A stretch of 24,626 nucleotides of DNA from Planoprotostelium fungivorum (lineage: Eukaryota; Evosea; Variosea; Cavosteliida; Cavosteliaceae): the NCBI GenBank assembly GCA_003024175.1, contig MDYQ01000320.1, positions 1 to 24,626 of the forward strand. Reading direction: 5' to 3'. Positions 1 through 24,626 of this stretch are shown here, one piece after another (the stretch's first letter is position 1; each line of letters starts with the position of its first letter). The notes beneath the pieces were generated by a model. The model worked only from the letters and a program-made list of their open reading frames with translations, searched no databases and was not told where the DNA came from. The translations under genes were made by a program, and so were the position numbers.

Positions 1-430
1 TGGTGAGACGAGTAGTGATAGCAGTGGCATATGTGTTCATCACTGACGAGCGATGGTAAGTGTGCTATGATGCTAGACAGAGACTGACGTGACACAGGTC
101 AGCAACAGTGATGCGGTTTCTGCTTCTCACTGCTCTCTTTCTGCATCTTGTCTTCTCTCCTTTTGTCACAGCAGCAGGGCAGTGGCTAGAGACAATATGT
201 CTTCTGTCTCTGTGCTGTCTGACAGTATTGAACGGACAGCTAGAATACAGATACTCTCACGCTTTCCTGGTGATCTGTCAGCATCTTACATCAGATGGAC
301 TCACACACCACAGGGCATCATAGCCCTTCCATTTGTGGCCAGTCTGATCATTGTGATCTACAAGCTATGGATGAAACGGAGGAAGAAGTATACACAGTAC
401 GAGCCTCTCGTTACTTCAGAAGAACTGTAG
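1..430 (+). CDS. 3' end of a beta-helix/Cys-rich/multipass membrane protein (partial copy of the array family)
   Basis: This is the C-terminal part of a gene that begins outside the window. The model is exons <1-55, 98-269 and 314-430, with introns 56-97 (GTAAG...CACAG) and 270-313 (GTGATC...CACAG). The last three membrane segments are visible: one starting VRRVVIAVAYVF, the hydrophobic stretch MRFLLLTALFLHLVF, and a final helix before WMKRRKK. The tail is YTQYEPLVTSEEL and stop. Exon borders and sequence match the 3' ends of the four complete copies in this window almost base for base, so the membership is solid. The tail carries a YEPL tyrosine-type sorting motif if it is cytoplasmic. Function is unknown; a surface receptor or transporter is inferred only from architecture. 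Confidence 0.85.
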
Positions 431-709
431 CAACAGCCTTGTCTTGCATCTCGAATCATGTTTGGTCTATCACTATTCTCGTAGAAAGTAAAAAGAAAGA
501 GTTCTAGTGCATTCCATTTGACATGATTGGCTCATTGTACAATGAGCCAATTGGCGTGATCTCCTTCTCCGTCTTCTCTTGTGATGGCCTCCATCACTTA
601 CTGTCCCGTTACTCGGTATCTTCTCTCAACTTCTTCTTTACTGTATGATCCCCGAATCAAATGACAGATACTTTTGTCGCTTATTTACATTTTACAAAGG
701 AGACTTCGG
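431..709. other. Spacer between two tandem family copies; putative promoter of copy A
   Basis: This 279-bp spacer holds no credible gene. It should contain the 3' end of the upstream copy and the promoter of copy A. Its only striking element is a perfect 26-bp palindrome at 526-551. No canonical AATAAA was seen just after the stop at 430. The 17 bases directly before the copy A ATG (693-709) resemble the leader of copy B. Confidence 0.6.
526..551. repeat. Perfect 26-bp palindrome with CCAAT/ATTGG ends
   Basis: The sequence starts ATTGGCTCATTG and ends CAATGAGCCAAT around a central GTAC dyad, and is fully self-complementary over 26 bases. The flanking bases 525 and 552 do not pair. The two ends are CCAAT boxes in opposite orientation. 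It lies 158 bp upstream of the copy A start codon, so a dimeric regulatory site or a cruciform/hairpin in the upstream gene's 3' region are both possible. Confidence 0.8.
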
Positions 710-3700
710 ATGATCGAACGGCTTCTCTGTCTTTCTGTCCTCTCATACCTTGCTGCGTCTTCGGACGCCTGTGAGGTCTATGTGGACAATCAGGCAGGAA
801 CTGATCTCGCCCCGTGTGGAAATGTAACAAACCCCTGCAGAAGCATTCCACCAAATAGTACGAACGTGTGTCTATCTCCTGGTCAGTGTAACGTCACAGA
901 TCGACTACCCTCTCAAATGCGAGGATGGTCAGTGGGAGTAGGAGCACAGGTGAGACTCTCCATAGAACGAGAATTAACTATTCACAGATCCCACGAGTTA
1001 CCTGTAACAACAAAGTGACCATCTCTTGTGAAAAGCAATCTTCTTTGGACTGGAATCTTTTAGACATCAGTGATTGTAATGTGCATAAGGGTGAGATTGA
1101 TACACAGATCGCAGGTGATGTAGTCTCACAACATCAGATCTTCGGTGAAGGCACCTCCATCAATTCGACCGTCAGCGATTGTCTCTTCGACGACACCAAC
1201 ATGATTCTGATCCATTCCTCTCCCGAATCACCCAAAACGACATCCGTGGCCCCCTCCCTCTTCCGTTTCATCGGTAATCAGCTCTTGGGCTCTTCCAAAT
1301 TCTCGTTCGAAGACAACACCACGGGCGGCCAATCGTACCAAGAGTTCATCAACAACACGTGTCCCAACGCCCCGACCATCGTGGCGCAGATCACTCTCCA
1401 CATCGCATGGACCGGTGCGTACGACCGAGAGAGCAGAACCAGACGCCACCTCCTCGTAGAAAATAACACGATGCCCGCCCTCTGGCTGCATCTCGACACT
1501 CCAAACACGCCGCAATTGAACATCACCGGAAATCATTTTGAATACTGCTACGTCATTTCCGTGGTCTCCTCTGAGAATGAGTACGAAAGCTCCTTGGTGT
1601 GGGTCGAGAGAAACACGATGACCGTCTTCACTTATACAAAGTCGGGCGCGCAAAGTTATGGACCGCTCGTGGTAAGACATAATCGCATGGACTCTGCACA
1701 AATCTTCTCCAATGGATTGAATGTCATCTTTCAACACAACATCTTGAGAGACTTTGGGGTGCACGAGGTGAAGTCGACTTCCATAGGTGATCGACTGATC
1801 GATACAGACTGGAGGGTACGTACCAGGACTAGATGACGTCATAACGGATAACACTATCACCACCTTCGCGTACACGATCTTATTCTTCAATTCTCTCTTC
1901 ATGGGTCCCGGTGCAGTGCAGATCCGACACAACTTCATTTCCTCGGCTGAAATATCGGTCTCTACAAGCTACGATATAGAGCTCAACATGGTTGATAACA
2001 TTTGGACGGGCCCCAATGCTCATCAGACCTTCGCCTTACACGTCAGACAGTTACGCCGTTGTGTCTTCTCCATGGGAAACTTCAGCATGGACAACTACCG
2101 AGGAGGGATCAAGATCGCCAGCGCAGCGCAGTCCTCCATTTACATCCGATACGGCAGGTGAATTGAAGATCGAAATTTCATGTCGAATCGTTATAGACTC
2201 AACATTGCACAGCATCCGCAGTAGTGAGAAGGGAGGCATATCCATCTCTGTTGAGAATACTTACGTCGACATTGCTTACGTCACCCTCTACAACAATACC
2301 AGCCCCACTGTAGGTGGTGCTATCTCCGTATCTGCATCAATAGAGGGTGTGATCGCGGTTAGAGACTGCAGTCTGATCCACAATCGATCGCCTCACAGCT
2401 CTGCAGTCTCTTTATCATCTGAAGAATATATAATAGTGAGAGTCGAATGCAATGAATGAATTATTGATGATGACAGGTGACGAACGTCAGTATCATCGTA
2501 CAAGATGACATCGATCAACCTCTCGTCGATCACTCTGTCTTCACTTTCAACGGTCATTATCACTATGAGAACGTATCACTGTCGTGCGCAGAAGAGAGAT
2601 ATTTGGCTTCATCCAACGTTTCATCATCGCTCGTGTGGAGCTGCAGACCGTGTGCTACTGGAACATACTTTCTGGGCAGAGGAGAAATGGTAGAGGATGT
2701 CGAGAAGGGCAACAAGTGCACGAGATGTCCAGAGAAGGGAGTGGAATGCGTGGATGGAAAGACACCCATAGTGAGACTCCGTCAAGATTTCATTTTATGT
2801 CTAATTGCGCGTGATCATCATCTGACCATTACAGAGTGCGCCCAACTATTGGTGTGGAAAGAACAGTTTACAACAGCTCATCTGTCACAACTGTCCCAGC
2901 GGCTATTGCAACGAGACAGCTCATCTGTGGAACAGCTCATGCATCGGTCATCGCAGTGGCGAGCTGTGTGGCGGCTGTGCAGACGGATACACACTTGGCT
3001 TTCTCACATCTGCTTGCCTGCCTGTCGATCACTGCAGACACGAGTGGATAGGACTGCTCTCTATCATCCCTTTCGTCTACGTGACAGTGCTGCTGTTCCT
3101 ACCGATAGGAGATGGGTCAATGTGGAAGTCGATGTCATACTTTGTACAGACCGTGCCTCTTTTACGTGAGATTCTTTCTACTGAGAACCGTTTGTTTCTC
3201 TCATACATCCCTCATCTTTGCCAAATAATGATGGAGCTTACAGTGAAGCAAGAGAAGCAGAACAGCATCATCACGATGTTCTCTTCTCTGTTCACTACGC
3301 CCACCAACATGGGCTCTTCTTCCCTTGGGTTCTGCATTGGTCAGATGGACTACATTGAGAGAGAGTTCATATCTCTCTATGTCCCAGCTGGCACTGTCAT
3401 CCTCTTCCTCTTCGGGTGTCTATGCATCCTATTGTATCACAAGATGGGCTGTACAATGCCACGACGAAAGATTATGTTTCTGACACAAGCGCTGAACAAG
3501 AGAAGCATGCTGAGTCGATGTACAACAGGCCTGGTGACAGGCTTCTTGCTGATGTACAGCGGACTGATAGCGTCATATCTGAAGCTGTACTTTTGCATAG
3601 AGGTGAGTGATGATAACAGAAGAACGAAGTAGGAGACTGAGAGAAGACAGATAGAGCCGGGGCGATGGGTGATGTACAATGCAGGAACAGAGAGATGTGA

Positions 3701-4431
3701 TCAGTGGTGGAGAACAATTCTCATCTCAGTGGCATCTATTCTTCTGTTACCGCTTCCTTTAGTAGTCTTCTTTGTTAGGTGTGTTTATTCCTTTTCTATT
3801 TTTCTTTACCTCACTGTCGGATTTCAGGCGAAGACTGAAAGGAACGGAAAGAGAGACAGGCAGAGATGTGCTCATGGTCTTAGACGGCTGCTACAGACAG
3901 TCTACAAAGTGAGCACAGACTGATCAACAGGTACAAGCAGAAGAGAGAGTGACATGAGAGCAGGTACTGGGAAAGTGTGTACATGGTGAGACGAGTAGTG
4001 ATAGCAGTGGCATATGTGTTCATCACTGACGAGCGATGGTAAGTGTGTTATGCTAGACAGAGACTGACGTGTCACAGGTCAGCGACAGTGATGCGGTTTC
4101 TGCTTCTCACTGCTCTCTTTCTGCACCTCTTTTTCACACCTTTCATCACAGCAGCAGGGCAATGGCTAGAGACAATATGTCTTCTGTCTCTGTGCTGTCT
4201 GACAGTGCTGAACGGACAGCTGGAAGAGAGATACTCTCACGCCTTTCTGGTGATCTGCCAGCATCTCTTGCTGACAGCTGGACTGAAGAAGTACAGGTCA
4301 TCATCTCGTTACCGTTTGTGACGAGTCTGATCATCATCATCCACCAACTCTGGATGAAGCGAAAGAACAAGAGAGACGTCACACGATACGAGCCTCTCCT
4401 CATGATGGAAGAATCTGTCATCGAAACATGA
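710..4431 (+). CDS. Family copy A: Pmp-like beta-helix ectodomain, Cys-rich module, multipass membrane protein
   Basis: Model: exons 710-949, 988-1767, 1808-2157, 2213-2435, 2477-2770, 2835-3165, 3244-3602, 3651-3778, 3828-3908, 3964-4038, 4078-4249 and 4297-4431, about 1055 residues. The ATG at 710 is chosen because it starts a signal peptide (MIERLLCLSVLSYLAASS) and matches the starts of the other copies. CEVYVDNQAG...CG...PCRSIP is a typical first coil of a right-handed parallel beta-helix. The helix continues to about residue 530, with NNTSPTVGGAI and IHNRSPHSSAV repeats. A Cys-rich module follows (CRPCATGTYFLGRG, CTRCPEKGVEC, then CHNCPSGYC, ELCGGCADGYTLGF), then about eight hydrophobic helices from residue 700 to 1030. 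The tail contains RYEPLLMM. Relative to copies B-D, about 23 codons of exon 2 are missing near 1081, where intron-like sequence (1081-1137) can be read through or spliced in frame. Function unknown; a surface receptor or transporter is inferred. Confidence 0.85.
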
Positions 4432-4483
4432 TTCATCACCATCACGATCCTCGTTTATCTTTATCTTCCGATTCCACATATGT
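4432..4483. other. Convergent 3'-3' spacer between copy A and ALDH7
   Basis: Only 52 bp separate the stop codons of copy A (+) and the aldehyde dehydrogenase (-), so both transcripts must end here or overlap. The pyrimidine-rich 12-mer TATCTTTATCTT (4456-4467) recurs in the other convergent spacer at 7538-7549. No AATAAA is present on either strand. Confidence 0.6.
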
Positions 4484-6466
4484 TCAAGAGAAGTTGATGC
4501 CCTGAGCCAGAGGAAGAGACTTTCCATAGTTGATCGTGCTGGTGACTCTCCTCATGTACTGCTTCCAAGAGTCACCACCGCTCTCTCTGCCACCTCCTGT
4601 CTCTTTCTCTCCACCGAATGCTCCTCCCACTTCAGCACCATTCGTCGGCACGTTGACGTTGACGATACCACAGTCTGAGCCGCTGGGGCCGATCCATTTG
4701 AATGCATTGCCGACGTTGCGAGTGAACAGACTCGATGACAGACCCTGTGGCACTTCGTTGTTGTACAGGATGGCGTTCTCGATGGATGAGCACTTGATGA
4801 TGTAGAGGATGGGAACAAAGAGCTCTTCTTTGACGATGGGCTTGTCGTGCTCGATCGTGACGATGGTTGGCTCGACGAAATTTCCACCGTTCGTGCCGAG
4901 GAAGTTGCCTCCGGCGATGATCTTGCCGCCTTCGCTCTGGATTCTCTTCAGACCTTCGGTGTATTCCTTGACAGCCGATTGAGTGTGGAGGGGTCCACAC
5001 AAGACACCTGGAAGAGATGAGCGTCATGATGATGATGGCGATGTGAAATGGATGATGATGTGATCATGGTGTGGAAGAGATGATGCGATCGTGATCATGA
5101 GATGATGGTGAGTCGTGGTGTACCTTCTTCTAATGGGCTTCCGATCTTGATGGTCTTGTACGCTCTGGTCAGACGATCCACCACCTCATCGTACACCTTC
5201 TCGTGGACGATCTGATCATCACCATTAGCTCTCATCTTCCATCTCTTCTCTCACCAATCTTCTGCAGGTCGTGCAACGTTGACCGCAAGTGCCTACGGCA
5301 GCGAAGAGAGCTGAACGGACGGCCATGTCGATGTCTGCATCATCCATGATGATGAGGGCGTTGTTGCCTCCCAACTCTAAGATGGTTCTACCGAAGCGAG
5401 AGTGAACCGAAGTGCTGACACGGGTTCCAATCTGCATCATGCGATCAGATGATGATGTCGAATGGACGCGAAGAGGTGCATGCGTGCACGATCCCATGTG
5501 GACGTGATGTGAAAGATGATGAGTCGTTCGGATGTGATGGAGATGATCTGAGGGGACTCACGTTGGTAGATCCGGTGAATGAAACGAGGGCCAGCCTCTT
5601 ATCTTGAATGAGAAGCTCACCAATGGATCTGCCGGGGCCGCAGATGAGAGAGAAGATGGCGGGGGGAACGTTCATCTTCTTTAAGACACGATCGACGATC
5701 TTTGTGATGGCGATGCTGCAGAGAGACGTAGTGGTGGCACCCTTCCAGATCTGAGCGTTACCGCAGATGAGACTGAGAGCTGCGTTCCAGCCACACACGG
5801 CCATTGGAAAGTTGAAGGCAGTGATGACACCGATGAGACCGAGGGGGTTCCAGTTCTCCAGCATGAAATGCTCGGGTCCTAACGTGGAGATGAGATGAAG
5901 AAATGCACTTGAGGAAGATGGGATGGAAAATGATATGGGAACGTAATCGAGAAGATGGATGGATGCAAGTGGAGAGACTCACTCTCTGATGGCAACACTT
6001 GTCCTCCGATGGTTCTGGACATTCCTTGTGCCATGTCACAGATATCGACAAACTCTTGGACTTCTCCTCTTCCTTCGACGAGGATCTTTCCCATCTCTAA
6101 TGAGACGAGCTTGCCGAGAGGCTCGATGAACTTCTGGACCTCTTGACCGATGGCTCTGACGAGTTCTCCTCTCTTCGGCATGGGAGTGGCTTGCCATTCC
6201 ACCGTTGTAGCTTGCATGCTCTTGATGCAGCGCTCATAGTCGGCGGCGGTACCCTGTATGACGTCAGTTTTTGTGATCGTATTGGAAAATGAGATGTAAC
6301 TCACTCCTCTAATTCTTGCAATGGGCTTGTTGTTAGCAGGGTTCACGGTTGTGAAATACTCCCCAGAACCGAACCATTCTCCATCGTAGACTCCTTCATT
6401 CTCCTCCTCAATGCCCAACTCCTTCAGGAAGGGATAGTCTTTGAATGTGAGTTCTGCGTTGCTCAT
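4484..6466 (-). CDS. ALDH7A1-like: ALDH7-family (antiquitin-like) semialdehyde dehydrogenase
   Basis: Model, from the start: exons 6466-6305, 6253-5983, 5878-5562, 5431-5255, 5211-5124 and 5007-4484, 512 residues, the usual length for cytosolic ALDH7. The family oxidises 2-aminoadipate 6-semialdehyde, and some betaine and lipid aldehydes, using NAD+; it serves lysine catabolism. Visible signatures are the N-terminal [41 protein letters not shown] in the cofactor region, LELGGNN with the general-base Glu269, and GQRCTT with the nucleophilic Cys303. Further on are [35 protein letters not shown] and the C-terminal LPLAQGINF. All catalytic residues are present, so the gene looks intact. There is no obvious mitochondrial presequence. 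It shares a divergent upstream region with the thioredoxin-like gene. Introns are 43-130 nt and rich in CAT repeats. Confidence 0.95.
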
Positions 6467-6736
6467 GTTGGGTGTTGGAGGTTTGGAGGTTTGCTTTGTG
6501 TGTTCTTCTCTTCCGGCGTCTGTCAGTTGTCGACATTGTTGGATTACAATTTACAAATCAGGGAAACCTTTCACCCCTTTGAAACGCTCCTGTTTTGCGA
6601 TCGTCGCGTCATCAACATCGAGATTGACTGACTCTCCTGCCGCTTGTGAAAGGAGATCCAAGAGAAGATATGACGGCTTATATACCGAATGACCTCCAGG
6701 TGGGGCAATGGATAGAAAGAAGATGGAGAGACTGAT
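6467..6736. promoter_or_regulatory. Divergent promoter region between ALDH7 and thioredoxin-like genes
   Basis: This 270-bp spacer lies between two head-to-head start codons and must hold both promoters. No strong known motif was recognised. An upstream ATG at 6670 begins a short reading frame (MTAYIPNDLQ...) that ends in TGA before the chosen start. It could be an uORF, or a first exon spliced from 6700 to the AG just before 6748, so the thioredoxin start is not certain. Confidence 0.5.
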
Positions 6737-7519
6737 ATGGGCGTCAAGTTTGTCAAGGGACAACATGTGGATTTTAGTGATCTCATGTCGAAGAAACAGT
6801 CCGTTTTTGTATTTGAATTTTGGGTGATCTGATGGAATGGTGACTGTGAATACTTACGTCCACTCAGGCCACTTGGTGTGGGCCATGCAGACAGACCGTA
6901 GGTCATCTCACACAATTACAGAAGCAATATGAATCACAGAATGTCATCTTTGTGGGCATCTCTGATGAAGATGAAACGGTGGGCATCTTCTGTTTTTTCT
7001 CGATCTCATCATCCTCTGCAAAAGATCTGATGGACTCAATCATTACAGACGGTGAAACGTTTTGTCGATCAAATGGGAAGTAAGATGGATTACCGCGTCG
7101 CCATTGATCGAAACCGAAAGATGAACGAGAACTACATGCAGAGTTTCAACGTAAGAGGTGAGATCGTCTTCGTGTGTGGCCTCCATCGAACATGAGAAAG
7201 GCATACCTCACGCTTTCATCGTGGACAAGGAGGGTAAAATAGCTTGGCACGGTCATCCAGGAGAGGGTGAGACATCGCCATCATCATCCATCCTCTAAAG
7301 ATGCATCATCTCATTCGAATAGGTAGCTTCGGTGTAGAGATACAGAAGGCAGTCAACGCGAGAGCGAAGCCGAGCATCGATCACAAGAGCATGAGTGAAG
7401 AACAGCAGAACGTCTTGTCGGTGTCTGACATCAAGTCCATCCTCAAATATCATCACGTCGATTTCTCTGGCGCAGTGGAAAAGCAAGACTTGTTAGACCT
7501 TTTGAGAAGCAAGTGTTGA
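6737..7519 (+). CDS. Thioredoxin-like (TlpA/redoxin-type) protein with C-terminal SAP/ARMET-like segment
   Basis: Model: exons 6737-6823, 6868-6978, 7049-7157, 7201-7266 and 7323-7519, 189 residues. The core is a thioredoxin fold: FVFEFWATWCGPC puts the redox-active CGPC at residues 33-36, followed by NVIFVGIS and, near residue 120, PHAFIVDKEGKIAW with the cis-Pro. HGHPGE follows, as in TlpA-like proteins. A final helical segment (VSDIKSILKYHHVDF, EKQDLLDLLRSKC) resembles the SAP-like C-terminal domain of ARMET/MANF proteins. The ATG at 6737 gives the natural start MGVKFVKGQHVDF; no signal peptide is seen, which suggests cytosolic disulfide reductase or peroxide-response work. An alternative first exon could begin at 6670. 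The gene shares its upstream region with ALDH7. Confidence 0.88.
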
Positions 7520-7527
7520 TCGTGAAA

Positions 7528-7533
7528 AATAAA
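7528..7533 (+). other. Poly(A) signal AATAAA of the thioredoxin-like gene
   Basis: A canonical AATAAA lies 8 bases after the stop codon at 7519, in the 54-bp convergent spacer before the stop of family copy B. The T-rich tract TATCTTTATCTT (7538-7549) follows it and would serve as a downstream element. Confidence 0.6.
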
Positions 7534-7573
7534 ACTCTATCTTTATCTTTTTCTTGAGGGCAACGTGGAAGTT

Positions 7574-10500
7574 TCACATTTCTTCGTTGAGAAGAAGTGG
7601 CTCGTTATCTATTTCATCTCTCTTCTTACATTTCATCCAAAGTTTGTGGATGATGACGATCAGACTCGTCACAAACGGTAACAAGATGATGACCTGCAAC
7701 ACCGTCAGTCTCATCTATAACGAGTGCTCACGAGAAAGGTGTAAGAGTATCTCTCTTCCAGCTGTCCGTTCAATACCGTCAGACAGCACAGAGACAGAAG
7801 ACATATTGTCTCTAGCCACTGCCCTGCTGCTGTGACAAAAGGAGAGAAGACAAGATGCAGAAAGAGAGCAGTGAGAAGCAGAAACCGCATCACTGTTGCT
7901 GACCTGTGTCACGTCAGTCTCAGTCCAGTACAAGGTGCTCACCATCGCTCGTCAGTGACGAACACATATGCCACTGCTATCACTACTCGCCTCACCATGT
8001 ACACACTCTCCCAGTACCTGCTCTCACGTCACTCTCTCTTCTGCTTCGTGCTCTATTGTTGTATGCTCACTTTGTAGAGTGTCTGTAGCAGCCGTCTAAG
8101 ACCATGAGCACATCTCTGCCTGTCTCTCTTTCCGTCCCTTTCAGTCTTCGCCTGCATCGTGTCACAATTGATCACACAAAGACGTTGTTTCACCTGATGA
8201 AGATGAGAAGAAGAGGAGAAGGCAGTAACAGGATAGATGCCACTGAGATGAGAACAGTCCTCCATGACTGATCACATGTCTCTGTTCCTGCATTGTACAT
8301 CACCCATCGCCCCGGCTCTATCTGTCTCCCCTCAGTCTTCTCTTCTCCTGCATCTTTCTCTTCTTCTCTCACCTCTATGCAGAAGTACAGCTTCAGATAT
8401 GACGCTATCAGCCCGCTGTACATCAGCAAGAAACCTGCCACAAGGCCTGTTGTACATCGACTCAGCATGCTTCTCTTGTTCAGTGCGTTTGTCAGAAAGA
8501 TGATCTTTCGTCGTGGCATTGTGCAGCCCATCTTGTGGTACAAGAGAGTGCACAGACAGGCAAAGAGGAAGAGAAAGATAGTACCAGCTGGGATGTAGAG
8601 AGACAATAACTCTCTCTGAATATAGTCCAATCTCCCAATGCAGAAACCCAGCCAAGAGGAAGAGCCCATGTTGGTGGGCGTGGTGAACAGAGATGAGAAC
8701 ATCGTGGTGACGCTGCTCTGTCTCTCTTGTTTTACTGTTGTTATCAGTCTCGATGATCACAAAATGCGAATGGTATGATACTTACATATGAGTGGGACTG
8801 TCTGTACAAAGTATGACATCGACTTCCACACTGCTCCGTCTCCTATCGGCACAAACAGCAACACTGCCACGTAGATGACAGGCACCATAGAGAGCAGTCC
8901 TATCCACTCGTGTCTGCAGTGATCGACAGGCAGACAAGCAGATGTGAGAAAGCCAAGTGTGTAGCCATCTGCACAGCCGCCGCACAGCTCGCCGCTGCGA
9001 TGACCGATGCATGAGCTGTTCCACAAGTGCGCACTCTCGTTGCAGTAGCCGCTGGGACAGTTGTGACAGATGAGCTGCTGTACAGCGTTCTTGCCACACC
9101 AATAGTTTGGTTTAGCCTGTGGCAGATGAACAACTACAGATGATGACGACACGTCAGCGTCTGATCACAGTGATGATGATGACGACACAGAGCGGATGAT
9201 GATTCGGACGATGACTATCATGATCGGTTGGACGATCACAAAGGTGGTAGAAATTATGATGGTAAGATAAATATGGTTCACCTGGGGTGTCTTTCCGTCC
9301 ATACATTCCACACCCTTCTCTGGACATCTCGTGCACTCGTTGCCCTTCTCGACATCCTCTATCACTTCTCCTCTGCCAAGAAAGTATGTGCCACTTGAAC
9401 ACGGTCTACAGCTCCACACGAGAGAAGAAGAGGCGTTGGATGAAGCCAAGTATCTCTCTTCTGCACAAGACAGTGACACGTTCTTGTAGTCGTGTGTTCC
9501 ATACAGATAGACGACAGAGTGATCGTTGAGAGGGTTATCTACATCATCTTCCACGATGATCTCCACGTTTTCGACCTTTCATCATCAGCTGTCGGCGCAC
9601 GAAATTTTGTCACCTGAATGTCTCCACCAGAGATCGACAGGGCAGAACCGTGAGGTGATCGATTGTGGATCAGTCTGCAGTCCCGAATCAAAACGGTCTG
9701 TTCTGTACCCGATGTGGAGATGGAAATTGCACCACCCACGGTGGGACTGGTGTTGTTGTACAGCGTGGAGGACTTGATGTCAATGTTGCTTTTCTCGACA
9801 GTCATGGATATAGCACCTCTTCCGCAGTTACTGATGCTGTAAGATTTCAGAATCATCACCAAGCTGAGATGGTACGATTCACCTCACGNAGATGATGACG
9901 ACACGTCAGCGTCTGATCACAGTGATGATGATGACGACACAGAGCGGATGATGATTCGGACGATGACTATCATGATCGGTTGAACGATCACAAAGGTGGT
10001 AGATATCATGATGGTCAGATAAATATGGCTCACCTGGGGTGTCTTTCCGTCGATGCATTCCACTCCCTCTGGACATCTCGTGCACTCGTTGCCCCTCTCT
10101 ACATCCTCTACCACTTCTCCTCTGCCCAGAAAGTATGTGCCACTTGCACACGGTCTACAGCTCCACACGAGAGAAGAAGAGGCGTTGGATGATGCCAAGT
10201 ATCTCTCTTCTGCACAAGACAGCGACAGGTTCTTGTAGTCGTGTGTTCCATACAGATAGACGACAGAGTGATCGTTGAGAGGGTTATCTACATCATCTTC
10301 CACGATGATCTCCACGTTTTCGACCTTTCATCATCAGCTGTCGGCGCACGAAATTTTGTCACCTGAATGTCGCCACCAGAGATCGACAGGGCAGAGCCTT
10401 GAGGCGATCGATTGTGGATCAGTCTGCAGTCTCGAATCAAAACGGTCTGTTCTGTAGTCGATGTGGAGATGGAAATTGCACCACCCACGGTGGGGCTAGT

Positions 10501-12135
10501 GTTGTTGTACAGCGTGGATGACTTGATGTCAATGCCGCTGTTCTCGACAGCCATGGATATAGCACCTCTTCCGCAGTTACTGATGCTGTAAGATTTCAGA
10601 ATCATCATCAAATTTAGATGATACGATTCACCTCACGGTATCGATCAATATGGTGGCCTTTATTGTACTACTGACCTTGATTCCCCCTTGACTGTATCCA
10701 TGGATACTCGTGTTTCTGAGGAGAAAGAAGCCGTACATCAACTGCAAGTGCAGCGCTGGTGTTTTTGTTTCTTCGATTGGACCCGTCCAGATGGTATCTT
10801 GCATGAGCAGCATCGCTGTTATATCCATATTGAGGATAATCCTCGCACTTGACATGATATTTCGATCAAATTTGACGGACGTGGATAATTTGCCTTGCGT
10901 GATGACATACGTCAAGAAAACGAACGTGTTATCTGATATCACGTCCCCCCTTCTCGTTTCATATCCCTTATTCTTTTTACGTCAGCTGAATATCGATACT
11001 CTCGAAAAAGTCTTCACCTCTATCAAATTGAATGCACGAATGTCATTGTGATGCAGCAGGAGGGTCACACCGTTTGATTCGACGGCCGCCAGTTGACCAA
11101 CTCGATTGTGGTGCATGAGGATGGATCCGTTGGTGGACGATCCACTCTTGCTCAGTATGATCGTCGAAAACGAATTGTTATCGATCTGTAATGATGGGAT
11201 GCGATCGCCATGCTCGATCGATGCGATCAGTCGGACGTATACTCGACAAAGAGTGAGGGTGTTTCCGGTGAGGCGTAAATCTGGCATTTCCATGGTAACG
11301 AGGTGAATATCCAGTTGGGGAAGAGTGTTGTTCTCCACGATGATGTGACGCTCGTTTCTCTTCAGACCTTGAGCATCGGACCATTGGATGTCTAAGCGGG
11401 CGGGTTTTGAAGAGGGATCATGCGTGTTGTTGATGATGGCGTGATGCGATCGCACACCCGTGGTGTTGTCCGAGAAGGAGAAAGCGGATGAGCCCATCAG
11501 GTAGTTTGAGGTGAAGAGGAAGACAGAGGATGCGTTGGCGGTTGATGTGGATGATTCGAATGGAAGAGTGTGGAGGAGACTGACAGTCGTGTGATTGAAG
11601 AGGCAGTCACTGAATGTAGAATTGGGAGAAGCATCTTGTGCTCGGATCTGTTCGCATGATTTTTAGAGAATCACAAGAATGGATCGGCCCACCGTGATTC
11701 GTGAGTCATACAGGCGAACAGATCGCAGGGTAACCTCTCTACAATTTGGTGATCTGACCATGCTGCAGCGGTCGATGTCTACAAGCTTCCAGAAGAGTGA
11801 AGGTTGGACATCGCAAGAAATCTTCGGAGCGTTGAGACAGGTGATTCTAGGTATCTGTATATCCTCAGTCTTTGTCTTCGGGTAGTAAACACCTGTGTTT
11901 CGGAATCATTTGACCACCATCCCCGAATCTGAGAGGGCATCCGATCTCTGATGTTATACTGACCAGAAGATAGACACACATTCGTGCTATTTTGCGGAAT
12001 GCTTCTGCAGGGGTTCATCCTATCTCCACACGAGACAACATCGTTTCCAGACTGACTGTCCACATATATCTCACAATCATCCAAAGAGGTGGCGGTGTGT
12101 ATGAGGAGAAAGACGCAAAGAAGCCGTGCGATCAT
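7574..12135 (-). CDS. Family copy B: beta-helix/Cys-rich/multipass membrane protein, interrupted by duplicated sequence and one N
   Basis: Exons from the start: 12135-11893, 11854-11693, 11647-11018, 10972-10632, 10585-10363, 10324-10034, 9116-8786, 8734-8373, 8321-8194, 8151-8071, 8017-7943, 7903-7732 and 7693-7574, about 1052 residues if only one copy of the duplicated block is used. The second copy of exons 5 and 6 lies at 9836-9614 and 9575-9282. The plan is that of copy A: signal peptide (MIARLLCVFLLIHTATS), CEIYVDSQSGND cap, beta-helix with NNTSPTVGGAISIS repeats, Cys-rich module, CHNCPSGYC/ELCGGCADGYTLGF, and membrane helices. The tail is DNEPLLLNEEM, so the Tyr of the YEPL motif is lost. 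As assembled, the exon 6 donor (phase 0) meets an exon 5 acceptor (phase 2), which breaks the frame. The 5' and 3' halves may come from different alleles or paralogs. Confidence 0.8.
9138..9888. repeat. Direct duplicate, left copy (751 bp)
   Basis: It matches 9890-10637 end to end with about 35 substitutions and one in-frame 3-base indel (by hand alignment). It covers, on the - strand, the end of exon 4, exon 5, exon 6 and most of the following long intron of copy B. It ends exactly at the N. Many differences are synonymous, as expected for alleles or recent paralogs. Confidence 0.9.
9889..9889. other. Single ambiguous base (N) at a probable contig join
   Basis: This is the only N in the window. 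It lies exactly between two direct copies of about 750 bp, as expected when two overlapping contigs were placed side by side without merging. Confidence 0.9.
9890..10637. repeat. Direct duplicate, right copy (748 bp)
   Basis: It matches 9138-9888. The three missing bases remove the Lys from the CPEKGVEC motif. This copy is colinear with the 5' part of gene B (exon 4 runs through its right end), while the left copy is colinear with the 3' part. Confidence 0.9.
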
Positions 12136-12553
12136 CCTCTCAATCGTCCGACGTCTCTTTTTGTAGATAGAGTATGGCAGATGATCAGAACCTAATGAAT
12201 TCTCATAACTCCGTTATATTTCTACAACACGAGCGTCTGCGTATACCGTGATAGAGACAATATTATATATACCATAGACGTAGATAGAAAGAGATTGAAC
12301 CTTGTTATATGTTCTAGTCTACCCATTACATGAGAACATTTTGTCGATTCGGGGAGGCCTTGTTGAAAATATTGTCCAGCGGGTTCGTTTTCAAACCATT
12401 TAAAATTAGTACACAAAAACACGGTTGATATCGTGCCTGTTGCTATTAGCAACTCGGTTTGTTAACGTGAAAAATTTAAAGGTTATGAAAACGAACCCGC
12501 TGGACAATACATTCCGCTCAGAAATACCATTTTTTATCGCATCCAATTGTCTA
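12136..12553. other. Spacer between copy B start and copy C stop; putative promoter of B
   Basis: This 418-bp spacer is AT-richer than the genes. It holds the copy B promoter and leader, plus a 136-bp inverted-repeat element (12372-12507) 236 bp upstream of the B start and 46 bp past the C stop. No gene was seen. Confidence 0.6.
12372..12507. mobile_element. 136-bp MITE with 22-bp terminal inverted repeats and TA target-site duplication
   Basis: The left end (12372-12393) begins TTGTCCAGCGGG and is the exact reverse complement of the right end (12486-12507). An imperfect inverted repeat continues inward through the AT-rich AAACCATTTAAAATT and AAATTTAAAGG stretches. TA dinucleotides flank it at 12370-12371 and 12508-12509, as left by Tc1/mariner-type transposases. 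The interior has no coding capacity but contains a small hairpin (12439-12453, GTTGCTA/TAGCAAC). It fits a non-autonomous Tc1/mariner-like or Stowaway-like MITE. No autonomous partner is in the window. Its GC-rich ends and AT-rich body differ from the surrounding spacer. Confidence 0.75.
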
Positions 12554-15500
12554 TCATAGTTCCTCTGTGCTGAGCATCGGCTCATAATCATTTGTGGGGA
12601 GTCTCTGCTTCCGTTTCGACCAAAGTTTGTGGATGGCGATCAAAAGGCATGCGATGAAGGGAAATGCAATAGCGATCTGCGAGATCGTCATGAATAGCAT
12701 GTTTCGAACGATGAACGTAGAACACACCAGAAAGACGTGAGAGTATCTCTCTTCTAGCTGTCCGTTCAATACTGTCAGACAGCACAGAGACAGAAGACAT
12801 GTTGTCTCTAGCCACTGCCCAGCTGCTGTGACAAAAGGTGTGAAGACAAGATGCAGAAAGAGAGCAGTGAGAAGCAGAAACCGCATCACTGTTGCTGACC
12901 TGTGTCACGTCAGTCTCTGTCTAGCATTACGTGCTCACCATCGCTCGTCAGTGATGAACACATATGCCACTGCTATAGCCAGTCTTCTGACCATGTACAC
13001 ACTCTCCCAGTACCTGCTCTCACGTCACTCTCTCTTCTGCTTGTGCCTTCTGTTCAGTCTGTGCTCACTTTCTAGACTGTCTGTAGCAGCCATCTAAGAC
13101 GATAAGGACATCTCTGCCTATCTCTCTTTCCGTCCCTTTCAGCCTTCGCCTAAAACTAGATGACGACAGGACTACGAATTTTACAGCCCACCTGATGAAG
13201 ATGATAACAAGAGGCAATGGTAGGAGCACTATGGAAGCTGTAGAGACCAGAATTGTTCTCCACCACTGATCGCATCTCTCTGTTCCTGCGTTGTACATCA
13301 CCCATCGCTCAGGCTCTATCTGTCTTCTCTCAGTCTTCTCTTCACCCGCATCTTTCTCTTCATATCTTCTCTCACCTCAATGCAGAAGTACAGCTTCAGA
13401 TATGACGCTATCAGCCCGCTGTACATCAGCAAGAAACCTGCCACAAGGCCTGTCGTGCACCGACTCAGCATGCTTCTCTTGTCCAGTGCTTTTGTCAGAA
13501 AGATGATCTTTCGTGGTGGCATTGTGCAGCCCATCTTGTGGTACAATAGGATGCACAGACAGGCCAGGAGAAACAGAAAGACGGTACCAAATGGAATGTA
13601 CAGAGACATGAACTCTCTCTCAATGTAGTCCATACTTCCAACGCAGAAACCGAGAGAAGAAGAGCCCATGTTGGTGGGCGTGGTGAACAGAGAAGAGAAC
13701 ATCGTGATGATGCTGTTCTGCTTCTCTTGCTTCACTACGATTGTTTTAATCCATATGAGAATGACTGGTGAATCGAGGAAGCAATCTCACATAAAAGAGG
13801 CACGGTCTGTACAAAGTATGACATCGACTTCCACATCGACCCATCTCCTATCGGCAGGAATAGCAGCACTGCCACGTAGATGACAGGCACCATAGAGAGC
13901 AGTGCGATCCATTCGTGTCTGCAGTGATCGACAGGCAGACAAGCAGATGTGAGAAAGCCAAGTGTGTAGCCATCTGCACAGCCGCCACACAGCTCGCCGC
14001 TGCGATGACCGATGCATGAGCTGTTCCACAGATGAGCTGTCTCGTTGCAGTAGCCGCTGGGACAGTTGTGACAGACGAGCTGTTGTACAGCGTTCTTGCC
14101 ACACCAATAGTTTGGCTTTGCCTATAGTTCTCGTCAGTGGATGTCGTCACATGGTGGATCTATTGGAGATGGACGATTTGATCACGAATATCGTCACGAA
14201 GGTAGTATGGAATGTCGACAAGAGATTGGAATGGAATCTTCACCTTTGGTGTTCTGCCGTCGATGCATTCCACTCCCTTCTCTGGACATCTCGTGCACTC
14301 GTTGCCCTTCTCGACATCCTCTACCACTTCTCCTCTGCCCAGAAAGTATGTGCCACTTGCGCACGGTCTGCAGCTCCACACGAGTGATGCTGAGGCGTTG
14401 GATGAAGCCAAGTATCTCTCTTCTGCACAAGACAGTGACACGTTCTCATAGTGATAGTTGCCGTTGAGAATGACGACAGAGTGATCGACGAGAGGTTGAT
14501 CTATGTCATCTTGTACGATGATACTGACGTTATCCATCTGCAATTTTTCACCACGTCATCCTATTCTGTCTCCTCACATCAAGTGTGCTGGCAGAGACCG
14601 ATACGGCCGAACTGTGAGGCGATCGATTGTCGACCAGAATGGAGTCCCGCATGGTGAATGGGTTGTCGTGGCCTGAGATGAGGATAGCACCTCCTGCCGT
14701 TGGACTCGTGTTGTTGTGGAAGATCACGGACCTCAGATTCACAGAAGAAGATTCTGCAGCCACAACGATACCTCCCTTTCCACAGTGACTTACACTGGTT
14801 CCTCTCAGCCGAATCACATAAAACGTCCGAAATGGTGTCTCCAACTCACTTGATCGATTCGATGTAGATGCTGGATCGCACCGTCCCACCGATGCTGATG
14901 CCTCCTCCTCTGTATCCACTTATCTTGCTGTTCTTCAAGAAGAGAGAACAGCTCGTCATCTGTGCGATCAGCAGGGCTGGCATCTCTGTTTGGTTGTAAA
15001 CTGGCCCCGTCCAAACGTTATCTAGCACGTAGAGATCTGCATTCGCATCCGAGATGAATGTGATATCTGCCCTGGAGAGGAAGTTCCGCGCGATGTATGT
15101 GTCACCACTTCTTCCCATCGTGCTAAATACAGAAACGTAATTGAGCTGGACGAAAGTGTTGTCCGTGATCACGTCTGTCCCTCTGGTGCTCACGTCTCCT
15201 CTCTGTATTCCTCAATCATCACGATGTGAGTGTTTGTGAATAGAAATGAAGGATGAAATGGAGGCAGTTCATAGATGGTGTAGAAACAACACACCCCCGA
15301 TATAGAGCAGATGCGAATATCATTGTTGTGGATTGCGAGCGGTAAGCTATTGGATCGAACGGTCAACCGTACCAGTACATTTTTCTGAAGGTTGACGGCA
15401 CCGTGGATAATATCTCGACCCTGTTTGTCGAGATTGAAGGTAGAAATGTGGTTGTCCTCGATGAAGATGAGAGACCCGATCGTAACCAATCCAGAGATGG

Positions 15501-16412
15501 TGAGCGAGACGTCACACTTGACCAGTCGATTGCCTACCATCTTCAAATCTGGTATACCATTGGTACGGAGATTGAGCGCCACAGAAGGTAAGACGTTCTT
15601 CTGTATCAGAAGGTGGCCCGTCGAATAATCAGTATCGTGTTGTCTGATCCATGCGATGAGAATGGTGGGAGACTGTTGGCTTCGAGATGTGGGGTCGAAG
15701 GTGTTGTTGATGAGCTCTTGAAACGATTGTATCTTCGTGGTCTTGTCCCAAAAGGAGAAACGAGATGAACCCAGCATGCGGTTGTTTTTGAATCGGAGGA
15801 GAGATAATGATGTCATCGGTGGTGGAGATGATTCAGAAACCGAATAGTGGGTGAGATCCAGTTTGGTGTTGTCGAATAGACAATCGTAGACGGTCGAGTT
15901 GAAAGAATTGCCCATTGATGTGATCTGTTGGATGGTCGATCTCATATCCATCATATCATCACCATCTCACAAACAGTCGTGTATGAAAGAAGGAAATCGA
16001 ATTCAAGGTGATTGTTGTGCATCGTGGGTCTATGAATTGGCAATTCTTGATGTGTAAACGGTCCCAATACAGTGAGGGCTGCACATCACAAGAGATCTCT
16101 ACTTCCTTCTGACAGAAAATCTGAGGGACCTGTTCTTATCAGTTTTCATTCCGACGATCACTGCACCTGTCCATTCGAGCCTGCTGGTTTCCACGCTCGA
16201 ATTTGAGATGGTAATCGATCCGTAATGTTATACTGACCGGAAGACAGACACACGTTCGTGCTGTTATATGGAATGCTTAGACAGGGGTGCAGCGGATCAC
16301 CGCAGGAAGCGCTGTCGTGACCGGAATGGCCATCAACGTATACCTCACAATCGTCCAGAGATCTGACGATATGGAACAGGAGGGATAGACAGAAGAATCG
16401 GTTTACCATCAT
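12554..16412 (-). CDS. Family copy C: beta-helix/Cys-rich/multipass membrane protein
   Basis: Exons from the start: 16412-16167, 16129-15971, 15924-15295, 15202-14850, 14794-14578, 14537-14244, 14121-13791, 13734-13376, 13319-13192, 13149-13069, 13013-12939, 12899-12728 and 12676-12554, about 1055 residues with an unbroken frame. It starts MMVNRFFCLSLLFHIVRS (signal peptide), then CEVYVDGHSGHDSASCG and PCLSIPYNSTNVCLSSGQ. The beta-helix domain has NNTSPTAGGAI and VDNRSPHSSAV. The juxtamembrane module has CRPCASGTYFLGRG, CTRCPEKGVEC, CHNCPSGYC and ELCGGCADGYTLGF. Hydrophobic helices follow, and the tail is NDYEPMLSTEEL. The 51-nt intron at 12677-12727 is open in frame, so an unspliced product would add 17 residues. 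This is the cleanest copy and the best reference for the family. Function unknown. Confidence 0.87.
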
Positions 16413-17062
16413 GTTCTGTGATGGATGCGCAGAGCTTCCGTTTTCTCTTCAAAACCCGCCTTATGGTTCGCTGTAGAAACTGTGATGGAAACCGGCAGAA
16501 AAAATTTTCCGCTTTAATTAATACGGTCTTGAACGGTGATACGTCAGACATGTGGTGTACCTGCTCAGCTACGAAACAGGGCTCAAGGCTGATTCATTTT
16601 GTCTGAACGACTTGTCAGATTTGCACTCCTTCACCAAGATTTAAATTATAATGATATTTATAATAATTATTGATTAAATCATCTGTCTGCAATTGAATAC
16701 GAACTGCTTGATGATGATCAGAAAACTCTCGTTTATAAGCAAATTGAACATATTGTCGGTGAACGTTGTAAACGCCCCATTAGATCAATACCGTATCCTT
16801 GTGGAAAATATCCCTTCATTTTCCCATCATCATCCGTTCCACATGATCGATGATCGACTGACCAAGAGATCGATCATCAGTATTTCCTCTTCTTTGATGG
16901 CTGGGAAAGGAATGATTCTGCGTCGTACAATTCTTCCTTGTGTAAAGCGAACGTATGCGTGGTTCTCCGGTATGTGATTCGATTCAGACTCTCTGCTGAC
17001 ATTCCACTGGCATCGTTCATTCTCTTCCTTCGTGGAGATGAATTGTAGAGATAAGATGATTC
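16413..17062. other. AT-rich 650-bp spacer between copies C and D, with an unassigned reading-frame fragment
   Basis: This is the longest spacer inside the array and clearly more AT-rich (for example 16640-16680) than the genes. A 59-codon open stretch at 16674-16850 (+) reads like protein (ELLDDDQKTLVYKQIEHIVG, then ERCKRPIRSIPYPCG) but has no start or partner exons I could identify. A 62-codon frame at 16418-16606 carries CRNC and CTC cysteines. Neither is recognised; they may be remnants of a lost gene or element. The part nearest 16413 should hold the copy C promoter. Confidence 0.4.
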
Positions 17063-20000
17063 TTACAATTCATCGCCGTTGCAAAGAGGCTCGTAACTCG
17101 GGTGACTTCTTCTCGTTCTCTTGTTCCAGTATTTGTGAACGACTATGACCAGGCTAACCATGAAGGGTACGGCGATGATGATCTACAACGCAATTCAATT
17201 GAGCTCGTCGAACGATGTACGATCTATCAACCCACCAGAAATGCGTGAGAGTATTTTTCTTCCAGCTGTCCGTTCAGCAACGTCAGACAGCACAGAGACA
17301 GGAGACACATGGTCTCTAGCCACTGCCCTGCTGCTGTGACAAAAGGTGTGAAGACGAGATGCAGAAAGAGAGCAGTGAGAAGCAGAAACCTCATCACTGT
17401 CGCTGACCTGTGTCACATCAGTCTCTGTCTAGCATCATAGCACACTTACCATCACTCGTCAGTGATGAACACATATGCCACTGCTATCACTACTCGTCTC
17501 ACCATGTACACGCTTTCCCAGTACCTGCTCTCACGTCACTCTCTCTTCTGCCTTGTGCATTCTGTTCAGCCTGTACTCACTTTGTGGAGTGTCTGTAGCA
17601 GCCGTCTAAGACCATGAGCACATCTCTGCCTGTCTCTCTTTCCATTCCCTTGAGCTTTCTTCTATTCCAAATATCACGGATAATACCAAGAACATGGAAC
17701 CCACCTGATGAAGATAATGAAGAGAGGGGCAGGTATGAAAAGGATCGACACGATCGAAATGAGAACCATTCTCCATGACTGATCACATCTCTCTGTTCCT
17801 GCGTTGTACATCACCCATCGCCCCGGCTCTATCTGTTCTCTCTCAGTCTCCTGCTTCATTCTTCTCTTGTTCTCTCTCACCTCTATGCAGAAGTACAGCT
17901 TCAGATATGACGCTATCAGCCCGCTGTACATAAGCAAGAAGCCTGTCACAAGGCCTGTTGTACATCGACTCAGCATGCTTCTCTTGTTCAGTGCGTTTGT
18001 CAGAAAGATGATCTTTCGTCGTGGCATCGTACAGCTGATCTTGCTGAATCCCAGGGTGCATAGACAGATTACGAGGATGAAGATAGTGCCAAATGGAATG
18101 TATAGAGATATGAACTCCCTCTCGATATAGTCCATTCTCCCAATGCAGAAACCGAGAAAGGAGGAGCCCATGTTGGTCGGCATGGTGAAGAGTGAAGAGA
18201 TCATCGTGATGATGCTGCTCTGTCTCTCTTGCTTCACTGCCGTCATTAGTAAAAGGGAGGTGAATGATCGTCTACGATGAATTACAAGAATCATTCTCAC
18301 GTAAGAGTGGGACCGTCTGCACAAAGTATGACATCGACTTCCACATTGACCCATCTCCTATCGGCAGGAACAGCAGCACTGCCACGTAGACGACAGGCAC
18401 CATAGAGAGCAGTGCGATCCACTCGTGTCTGCAGTGATCGACAGGCAGACAAGCAGATGTGAGAAAGCCAAGTGTGTAGCCGTCTGCACAGCCGCCACAC
18501 AGCTCGCCGCTGCGATGACCGATGCATGAGCTGTTCCACAGATGAGCTGTCTCGTTGCAGTAGCCGCTGGGACAGTTGTGGCATATCAGCTCTGCTCGAT
18601 CATCCATTCTACACCAATAGTTGGGTTTACCCTGTCATCTCGATCAGATACTGTTGAGATGAACTCATCATAATACCTTTGGTGTCCTTCCGTCGATGCA
18701 TTCCACTCCCTTCCCTGGACATCTCGTGCACTCGTTGCCCTTCTCGACATCCTCTACCACTTCTCCTCTGCCCAGAAAGTATGTGCCACTTGCACACGGT
18801 CTACAGCTCCACACGAGTGATGCTGAGGCGTTGGATGAAGCCAAGTATCTCTCTTCTGCACAAGACAGTGACACGTTCTCATAGTGATAGTTGCCGTTGA
18901 GAATGACGACAGAGTGATCGACGAGAGGTTGATCTATGTCATCTTGTACGATGATATCCACACTCCTAAGCTGATTTACCGTCAACCTTAAGTTCTCTTT
19001 CACGGTCTCTCACTTGTATGACATCGTTCGATGATATGTAAAGGGCCGAACTGTGAGGCGATCGATTGTCGATCAGACTGCATTCGAGAAGGTTGATGAG
19101 AGCGTTTTTGCCCGAAATTGACACGGCACCACCCACCGTGGGGCTAGTGTTGTTGTAGAGGGTGATGGACGTCAGATTGATCGGACTCATCTCTGTCATC
19201 ATCAAGATGCCTCCTTTACCGCAGCTACTGATGCTGTACAAATGATCAACGAGATGTTACAGACGAGAAATCGATGAAAATGATCCAATTCCAGGAATTC
19301 TGGTGTGTCACTCACTTGATCGACTCGATGTGTATTCTAGATCCTAATGCACTGGCGATCTTGATTCCTCCACCTCTATATCCGTCCATGCTGCTGTTCC
19401 TCAGGACCAGAACGCCGCTCAAAATCTGCGTGAAGTGCAAGGCAGGCTCTTCCTCGTATCGCACGATTGGACCCGTCCAAACGTTGTCCATCATGAAGAG
19501 GAACGTGTCTACGAACGTGTTGATCGTGATGTCAGCTCTCGAAAAGTGATTTCTATCGATTCGAATCTCGTTGCGAGTGAGCAGATCATCGTTGGTGTGT
19601 ACGATGGTATAGGTGAAGGTGGTGAAGGTATTGTCCGTTATAATGTCTCCCATATCAGGTACGTAGCCTCCCGTCTGCATCGATCAGTCGATTCACCATC
19701 GTCGATTCTTCACCTCGAATCTCTCCCAATTCAGGATGTCGTTGTTTTTTACGACGATGGCCGTACCGTTCGACGAAACTTCCATATATAGCATGTGATT
19801 GTGTCGGATGTTCAGAGGGCCTCGTGCACTGGCTCCCTTCTTTGACACGTGTATCACATTCATATCGGTTTCCTCGATGAATGCAGGGTGATGGCCGTAA
19901 AGGTCTTCGTCTTGGACGTTCAGGTAGATCAAACACACGACCATGTGATTCCTCGTCAGCTTCATGTCCGGTGATCCCAATGTCGAGAGATCGAATTGTG

Positions 20001-20830
20001 CGGTGCGTAGAATGTTGTTCTCGACTAGAAGGTGGCGGCCGGTTGGGTTCTCTCGATCGTAAGCGCCAGACCAAGTCAATTGGAGAGTCGTAGGAGCGGG
20101 TGTGGTCTGGGTGGCGTCGTACGTGTTATTGATGAGCTCTTGGTACGATTGTACCCCTGAGGTATGGTCTTCGAAGGAGAGTGAGGAAGAGCCCAGAATG
20201 TGATTCGAGAGAAGGCGGAAGTGAGAAGATGCGATGGTGGATGGTGCGGATGATTCGGAGGAATGGATGATGTGGAGATTTGTTTCGTTGAAGAGGCAGT
20301 CGTTGATGGTCGAATTGGAAGAGTTGTCTTTCACCGAGATCTGATCATACACCGTCAGATACCCACCGATCACAATCGATGTTGATTCACCGTGATTTTA
20401 GAGTTGAAAAAGTGAACGGATTCCAATGTTACTTCTCTGCATTCTGAATGTTCTACGAGACAGTTGCTGATCTCCACACGGTTCCAATGCATTGAAGATT
20501 GATAATCACAAGAGATGATCGCTTCGTTACGACAGGTGATCTGTGGCTCCTGGATATCGTCAATCTTCGTTCTGTCGAGTTAAATACCTGTTCTTCTGAT
20601 CGCCATGCTCGCATTTGAGGTGGTATTCGATCTGTGACAACATACTGCCCAGAAGACAAACACACGTTCGTGCTGTTATATGGAATGCTTCTACATGGAT
20701 TTAGAGCATCACCACACGAGGCGAGATCTCTTCCGATGTGATTGTCCACATACACTTCACAGAAGTCCGAAGAGTTGACAATACAGAGGAAGAAGGAAAG
20801 CCAAAAGAGTCGTAGACCATCTCCCATCAT
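17063..20830 (-). CDS. Family copy D: beta-helix/Cys-rich/multipass membrane protein with an in-frame TGA at a splice border
   Basis: Exons from the start: 20830-20588, 20540-20391, 20340-19714, 19674-19316, 19233-19014, 18970-18677, 18631-18301, 18236-17881, 17832-17705, 17661-17581, 17524-17450, 17407-17236 and 17182-17063, about 1051 residues. Landmarks are MMGDGLRLFWLSFFLCIV, CEVYVDNHIGRDLASCG, beta-helix repeats NNTSPTVGGAVSIS and IDNRSPHSSAL, the Cys-rich module, the membrane helices, and the tail SYEPLCNGDEL. In exon 11 the codon that is CGA in all other copies is TGA (17454-17452), just before the GTAAG donor. Splicing at the GTGATG donor six bases upstream (exon ending at 17456) would remove the stop and keep the frame. 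The region after NYWC (RMDDRAEL) differs from KNAVQQL in copies B and C. A start at 20827 is equally possible. Confidence 0.83.
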
Positions 20831-24620: not shown

Positions 24621-24626
24621 GTTGTT

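Follow-up and report, generated by a model that had tools for sequence, protein, structure and literature searches.

Introduction

In mammals, the tandem paralogous receptors TLR1 and TLR6 have been kept alike by gene conversion in their membrane-near region, their membrane region and most of their signaling part, while the outer solenoid diverges, as set out in the sections of Kruithof et al. (2007; PMC2077338) used here. In this study we describe an array of paralogous genes from Planoprotostelium fungivorum (assembly GCA_003024175.1, contig MDYQ01000320.1, positions 1 to 24,626 of the forward strand; this whole stretch of 24,626 nucleotides is referred to below as the window) whose predicted products combine a beta-helix ectodomain, a cysteine-rich stalk and a multipass membrane part. 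The array resembles the TLR1/TLR6 pair in that paralogous, putatively receptor-like genes stand in tandem, with a diverging outer solenoid and a conserved membrane-near and membrane part. However, the solenoid is a predicted beta-helix rather than a set of leucine-rich repeats, the membrane part is multipass rather than single-pass, and no TIR domain was seen in the copies. The conservation also appears to be older or less complete here: in the same identical-codon test, the conserved and diverged parts of TLR1/TLR6 gave 96.3% versus 56.2%, compared to 79 to 81% versus 45 to 57% for the present copies, and conversion in the TLR genes is backed by nine species in the cited sections of that article (PMC2077338).

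The separate parts of these proteins are of known kinds, namely, a beta-helix, Ephrin-like cysteines and multipass membrane segments. With the beta-helix proteins represented by Pfam family PF13229 and by the repeat of the Chlamydia Pmp proteins (PF02415), the copies share a PbH1-like repeat and a GGA[IV] motif. Chlamydia Pmp proteins end in an autotransporter barrel, whereas the C-terminal half of the present proteins is multipass. Stretches of the two cysteine blocks resemble the domains Ephrin_rec_like (block 1) and DUF7630 (block 2). Other protists have proteins of a similar beta-helix, cysteine-rich, multipass make-up, and a comparable YWE...RR membrane motif is found in them as well. In a survey of amoebozoan G protein-coupled receptors (GPCRs), PbH1 and Ephrin_rec_like stand among the domain names abbreviated in Table 2 for the annotated receptor trees (PMC10445921). 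The portions of its text considered here describe no beta-helix receptor, but such a receptor may already be drawn in its figures.

Results

Conserved and diverged halves of the copies

The window contained four paralogous genes with one common architecture, designated A (positions 710 to 4431, plus strand), B (7574 to 12135, minus strand), C (12554 to 16412, minus strand) and D (17063 to 20830, minus strand), as well as a partial copy, Z (1 to 430, plus strand). Gene models were built by hand, and their basis was the splice sites shared among the copies rather than transcripts. In the common exon numbering, exon 1 encodes a signal peptide and a cap with the pattern CE[VI]YVD...CG...PC, and exons 2 to 5 encode about 450 residues of predicted beta-helix with NNTSPT[VA]GGA[IV] repeats. 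Exons 6 and 7 contribute 6 and 8 cysteines, respectively, which are invariant in the four copies and lie ahead of the first membrane helix. Exons 1 to 5, the variable half, span positions 710 to 2435 in A and 14578 to 16412 in C. Exons 6 to 12, the conserved half, encode the two cysteine blocks and membrane helices 1 to 8 and span positions 2477 to 4249 in A, 12728 to 14537 in C and 17236 to 18970 in D.

Between copies, protein identity was 36 to 45% in exons 2 to 5, rose to 85 to 89% in exons 6 to 12 and fell to 38 to 67% in exon 13. The same contrast was present at silent sites. The number of synonymous substitutions per synonymous site (Ks) was 1.45 to 2.04, near saturation, in exons 2 to 5 versus 0.33 to 0.43 in exons 6 to 12, in all six pairs of copies, and fourfold-degenerate sites differed at 20 to 29 of 48 positions in exons 2 to 5 and at 37 to 44 of 174 in exons 6 to 12. 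Where the residue was conserved, the identical codon was used in 79 to 81% of cases in exons 6 to 12, compared to 45 to 57% in exons 2 to 5, 45 to 78% in exon 1 and 41 to 75% in exon 13. Codon usage alone predicted 35 to 38% identical codons in exons 1 to 5 and 42 to 44% in exons 6 to 12. Therefore, codon usage does not explain the likeness of exons 6 to 12, even though its bias is stronger there (effective number of codons, 43 to 46 versus 53 to 56).

The boundaries of the conserved block were sharp and close to exon junctions, a feature absent from the preliminary description of this DNA. In all six pairs, the best silent-site segment exceeded those of all 5,000 shuffles, and in five of them the segment began within 36 alignment columns of the border between exons 5 and 6 and ended within 2 columns of the border between exons 12 and 13. 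The remaining pair, A-B, had its best segment at columns 612 to 1046, with the borders at 550 and 1031. Gap runs were distributed in the same manner, with 32 in exons 2 to 5 versus 5 in exons 6 to 12. The 300 bases upstream of copies A to D showed no similarity to one another (E value, 0.1).

Ectodomain and membrane part

A right-handed parallel beta-helix in the N-terminal half is well supported by motif counts, profile matches and structure prediction. The ectodomains of A, B, C and D contained 10, 8, 9 and 9 instances, respectively, of hxhxxNxh, a loose PbH1-like motif devised in this analysis, versus 2.1 to 2.7 in shuffled sequences (1,000 shuffles each). The Pfam family Beta_helix (PF13229; cut-off, 25.9 bits) was matched at cut-off in two of the four copies, with 26.8 bits for the whole of C and 25.9 bits for the ectodomain of D; it was not listed for A or for the ectodomain of B. 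AlphaFold2, supplied with the single-frame exons 2 and 3 of A and three paralogue rows (four sequences), returned an all-strand solenoid with a predicted template modeling score (pTM) of 0.75 and a mean predicted local distance difference test (pLDDT) score of 70 for the best of five models; mean pLDDT values of the remaining four were 29 to 58. In the best model, block means were 73 to 95 across the last 110 residues, and the first 50 residues were poor. Other repeat families were matched below their thresholds: Chlam_PMP repeats were listed in three of the four copies, at best with 14.1 bits versus a cut-off of 20.6, Pentapeptide_4 was touched in the ectodomain of D (E value, 0.066), and in NCBIfam, POMP_repeat was touched by one of the four members (E value, 0.15). 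In a fold search of the beta-helix model against the PDB, no match had an E value of 0.001 or less. The best matches were weak (best E value, 0.03; TM-score by query, 0.27) and were polysaccharide lyases (PL6 alginate lyase and RbmB), with TLR2 and other solenoids lower in the same list; against viral models, the best E value was 0.0023.

Domain profiles touched both cysteine blocks, in every case below the curated cut-off: Ephrin_rec_like (PF07699) on block 1 and DUF7630 (PF24633) on block 2, the latter at best with 21 bits versus 27. The profile NCD3G was touched by a single open reading frame (ORF) piece, which includes exon 6 of D (16.2 bits versus 38.9; E value, 0.0094), and was not listed for whole copies.

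At a strict hydropathy cut-off, seven distinct C-terminal segments were found in A, B and D and six in C. When weaker segments were counted too, nine helices were predicted; the segments were picked by eye, and segments 6 and 7 touch. Two loops are basic, one after segment 3 (7 K/R and 1 D/E) and one after segment 5 (11 and 5). Hydropathy and loop charge together fit a nine-helix topology with the N terminus outside and the C terminus inside; the short charged tail, with 4 basic and 4 acidic residues, is uninformative on this point. No Pfam family reached its cut-off over the membrane part, and neither 7tm_3 nor any other seven-transmembrane (7TM) profile was listed in Pfam scans at E values up to 10. 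Sub-threshold touches of DUF3413 (E value, 0.038), CATSPERB_head (0.12) and PGG (0.27) were taken as chance. A PDB sequence search with whole-protein and conserved-half profiles yielded no matches at E values up to 10.

The preliminary description had proposed a common order of signal peptide, cap, beta-helix, two cysteine-rich blocks, multipass region and short charged tail, and that order was seen in the copies. Its beta-helix is borne out by the Pfam matches in C and D, the motif enrichment and the AlphaFold2 model, and its multipass region agrees with hydropathy and loop charge. The 7TM-like bundle that it had envisaged remains a candidate fold: no 7TM family was listed by Pfam, no PDB chain matched by sequence, and the predicted structure of a partial membrane piece scored low (see below).

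Tests of gene conversion

Evidence within the conserved block was in part consistent with exchange between the copies. Introns 8, 10 and 11 were 74 to 93% alike, versus 60 to 71% when shuffled. Inside the block, exon 8 held a significant identity run for B-D (global P = 0.016) and exon 7 one for B-C (global P = 0.030). When silent sites alone were tested, exon 6 held a run for C-D (pairwise P = 0.0016), and the other five pairs gave P values above 0.05. Read by eye, copy Z resembled different copies in different patches: D in an insertion of intron 11, B in a stretch of exon 12 and A where intron 12 begins.

Several observations weigh against conversion as the source of the block or make the pattern less clean. 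Introns 6, 7 and 9, which also lie inside the block, were at background (intron 6 of B was not comparable), and some introns of the variable half were alike, namely, intron 3 of A-D (85%) and intron 1 of B-D (79%). Exon 13, which is not part of the block, holds the strongest identity run of all, that of A-B (global P = 0.0035); for this pair, codon sharing also reaches 75% in exon 13 and 78% in exon 1. Identity runs in A-C, A-D and C-D were not significant (P = 0.087, 0.36 and 0.13, respectively). Furthermore, the copy pairing supported did not differ among exons 6 to 12 (P = 0.54; 55 informative sites). Positive selection in the beta-helix was unsupported, with a ratio of nonsynonymous to synonymous substitution rates (Ka/Ks) of 0.28 to 0.43, although Ks is near saturation there. 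AlphaFold2 gave a pLDDT of 36 for a partial, single-frame piece of the membrane part.

Although the direct tests were mixed, gene conversion of the kind described for TLR1/TLR6 is the likeliest cause of the conserved block. Because the introns, the identity runs and the pairing test disagree, conversion, if it is the cause, would be patchy and partly old, with purifying selection acting in addition. The pattern would look much the same if a younger membrane half had been joined just once to older ectodomains.

Gene models, copies and neighboring features

The window is eukaryotic, as its genes are interrupted by short GT-AG introns. Introns of the array measure 37 to 122 bases, except for the stretch of B that holds an assembly join. 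Each of B, C and D comprises 13 exons, with twelve introns in identical phases (0, 0, 0, 2, 0, 0, 1, 0, 2, 2, 2, 0). Copy A has 12 exons; it lacks intron 2 and has the other eleven introns in common with B, C and D. An earlier model of A had included intron 2 with a poor donor, and this intron was dropped. The intron plan and phases that the preliminary description had given as shared by all thus apply in full to B, C and D.

Copies A and C, each of 1,055 amino acids, are open throughout as modeled. Copy B was modeled with 1,052 amino acids across the join: the sole N of the window, at position 9889, joins two ends that align over 721 bases (region 9165 to 10640) with 95% identity, 35 mismatches and 3 gap columns. 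Exons 5 and 6 of B are present twice, at 10034 to 10585 and at about 9267 to 9856. Thus, two overlapping ends were joined, the two exons were doubled and the B model spans two contigs; the ends derive either from alleles or from near-identical copies. In copy D, an in-frame TGA (17452 to 17454, read from 17454 on the minus strand) forms the final complete codon of exon 11; the corresponding codon is CGA in A, B, C and Z. Since another GT just upstream of the TGA is a possible alternative donor, this copy may represent either a pseudogene or a splicing variant. Copy Z consists of part of exon 11 and exons 12 and 13 of a fifth gene.

The preliminary description had counted four complete genes and a 3' fragment. 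The five related copies stand, and so does their clustered amplification within the window, but only A and C are intact as modeled, B crosses the join and D carries the TGA. The supposed fragment Z begins at base 1 and is therefore a gene truncated by the edge of the window rather than one shown to be broken. Beyond Z and the doubled exons of B, tblastn (E value, 0.01) detected no further family fragments in the window.

An aldehyde dehydrogenase gene (4484 to 6550, minus strand; Pfam Aldedh in two pieces) and a small gene (6700 to 7520, plus strand) separate A from B. The latter is redoxin-like by eye only, and its end gave a sub-threshold HeH/LEM-like match. Between B and C, positions 12372 to 12507 hold an element resembling a miniature inverted-repeat transposable element, with perfect 22-base terminal inverted repeats and TA flanks on both sides. 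Beyond the array lie a gene (21400 to 22915, plus strand) whose pattern looks RING-like by eye and which matches B-box below threshold and, near the window end, a gene for MTP18, the mitochondrial 18-kDa protein (23791 to 24626, minus strand; Pfam, two pieces). Searches of the window for Rfam families, tRNA genes and tandem repeats found nothing.

Discussion

We tentatively favor, with a confidence that stops just short of even, the reading that the copies are paralogous surface receptors or adhesins that engage different ligands through their ectodomains and act through a common transducer, with gene conversion keeping the stalk and membrane unit alike. The preliminary description had also called them surface receptors, and "receptor" is the inference we prefer, since a conserved membrane half combined with a diverged ectodomain favors it. 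Its further suggestions, transporters and the recognition of bacterial or fungal prey, are conjectural. Each copy would have its N terminus outside, where a beta-helix of about 450 residues would present a copy-specific face. A cysteine-rich stalk would follow and then a membrane unit of about nine helices, two of whose inner loops would be long and basic, with a short charged tail at its end. Through conversion between copies, stalk and membrane unit would continue to fit a single common partner or assembly while the sensor could vary, and the array would thereby read several ligands into a common output. For a beta-helix, glycans or surface polymers would be a likely class of ligand. A ligand face for each copy and a shared partner for the stalk and nine-helix unit are proposed here by analogy with TLR1/TLR6. 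Because the last helix and the tail diverge again in most pairs, the tail may be copy specific as well.

One alternative accepts the two halves and dispenses with continuing conversion. Exons 6 to 12 would then be strongly constrained, silent sites included, or a younger membrane half would have been joined once to older ectodomains. The stronger codon bias of these exons, the introns of the block that are not alike and the uniform pairing of copies along it all suit this explanation. However, the excess of identical codons over the prediction from codon usage, the likeness of introns 8, 10 and 11 and the two identity runs inside the block speak for exchange, and we regard the absence of conversion as unlikely, though a serious contender. 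Doubts of a different kind concern what the membrane unit does. It could be a channel or transporter, with the beta-helix as its regulatory or capture domain, serving uptake of, or gating on, extracellular polymers; a helix count near nine instead of exactly seven, the two basic inner loops, the lack of a listed 7TM family and the sub-threshold touch of CATSPERB_head by an ORF piece of D would be in keeping with this function. Yet no channel or transporter family reached its cut-off in Pfam and no PDB chain matched by sequence, which leaves this possibility rather unlikely in our estimation.

It is distinctly doubtful that the copies are divergent GPCRs of class C (the glutamate family) or another class in which a beta-helix has replaced the ligand domain. 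The ORF piece with exon 6 of D touches NCD3G and Ephrin_rec_like below cut-off, Ephrin_rec-like domains occur on choanoflagellate and related glutamate-family receptors in the parts of PMC12716839 consulted, and the domain names in Table 2 of the amoebozoan survey (PMC10445921) point in the same direction. On the other hand, the copies gave no 7TM match, their helix count is about nine, NCD3G was confined to that one piece, and the same parts of PMC12716839 report that NCD3G was not detected in non-metazoan GPCRs. Highly improbable, finally, is a membrane-anchored, lyase-like carbohydrate-active enzyme. The best fold matches were indeed polysaccharide lyases, but they were weak and shared their list with TLR2 and other solenoids; moreover, N, S, T and G abound among the 99 invariant columns of the beta-helix, and no catalytic motif was recognized by eye. 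An enzymatic role of the beta-helix is thus not supported.

In the literature searched (open-licence articles, mostly titles and listings), no description was found of the combination of these parts with this membrane unit or of the split into conserved and diverged halves, nor any mention of DUF7630. Searches of IMG/VR contigs (with the conserved half and with exon 7 alone) and of GTDB genomes confirmed no relatives, which is weak evidence, as the searches needed exact short peptides and covered viral and bacterial/archaeal collections.

Should the favored reading of receptors with different ligands and a common transducer be correct, the array would be a tractable unicellular receptor system with opposite evolutionary regimes for sensor and transducer, and it would direct attention to an orphan membrane module as the common output of the copies. 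For separating specificity from signaling, the parts to swap are marked by the breaks near exons 5/6 and 12/13. A bolder proposal, which we consider unlikely at present, is that the copies represent a so far undescribed class of protist recognition receptors in which interchangeable beta-helix sensors are mounted on one orphan nine-helix transducer, the shared half being kept alike by ectopic conversion bounded at exon junctions, such that new specificities are added without loss of output. If it were true, this class would be a unicellular counterpart of the variable/constant receptor design.

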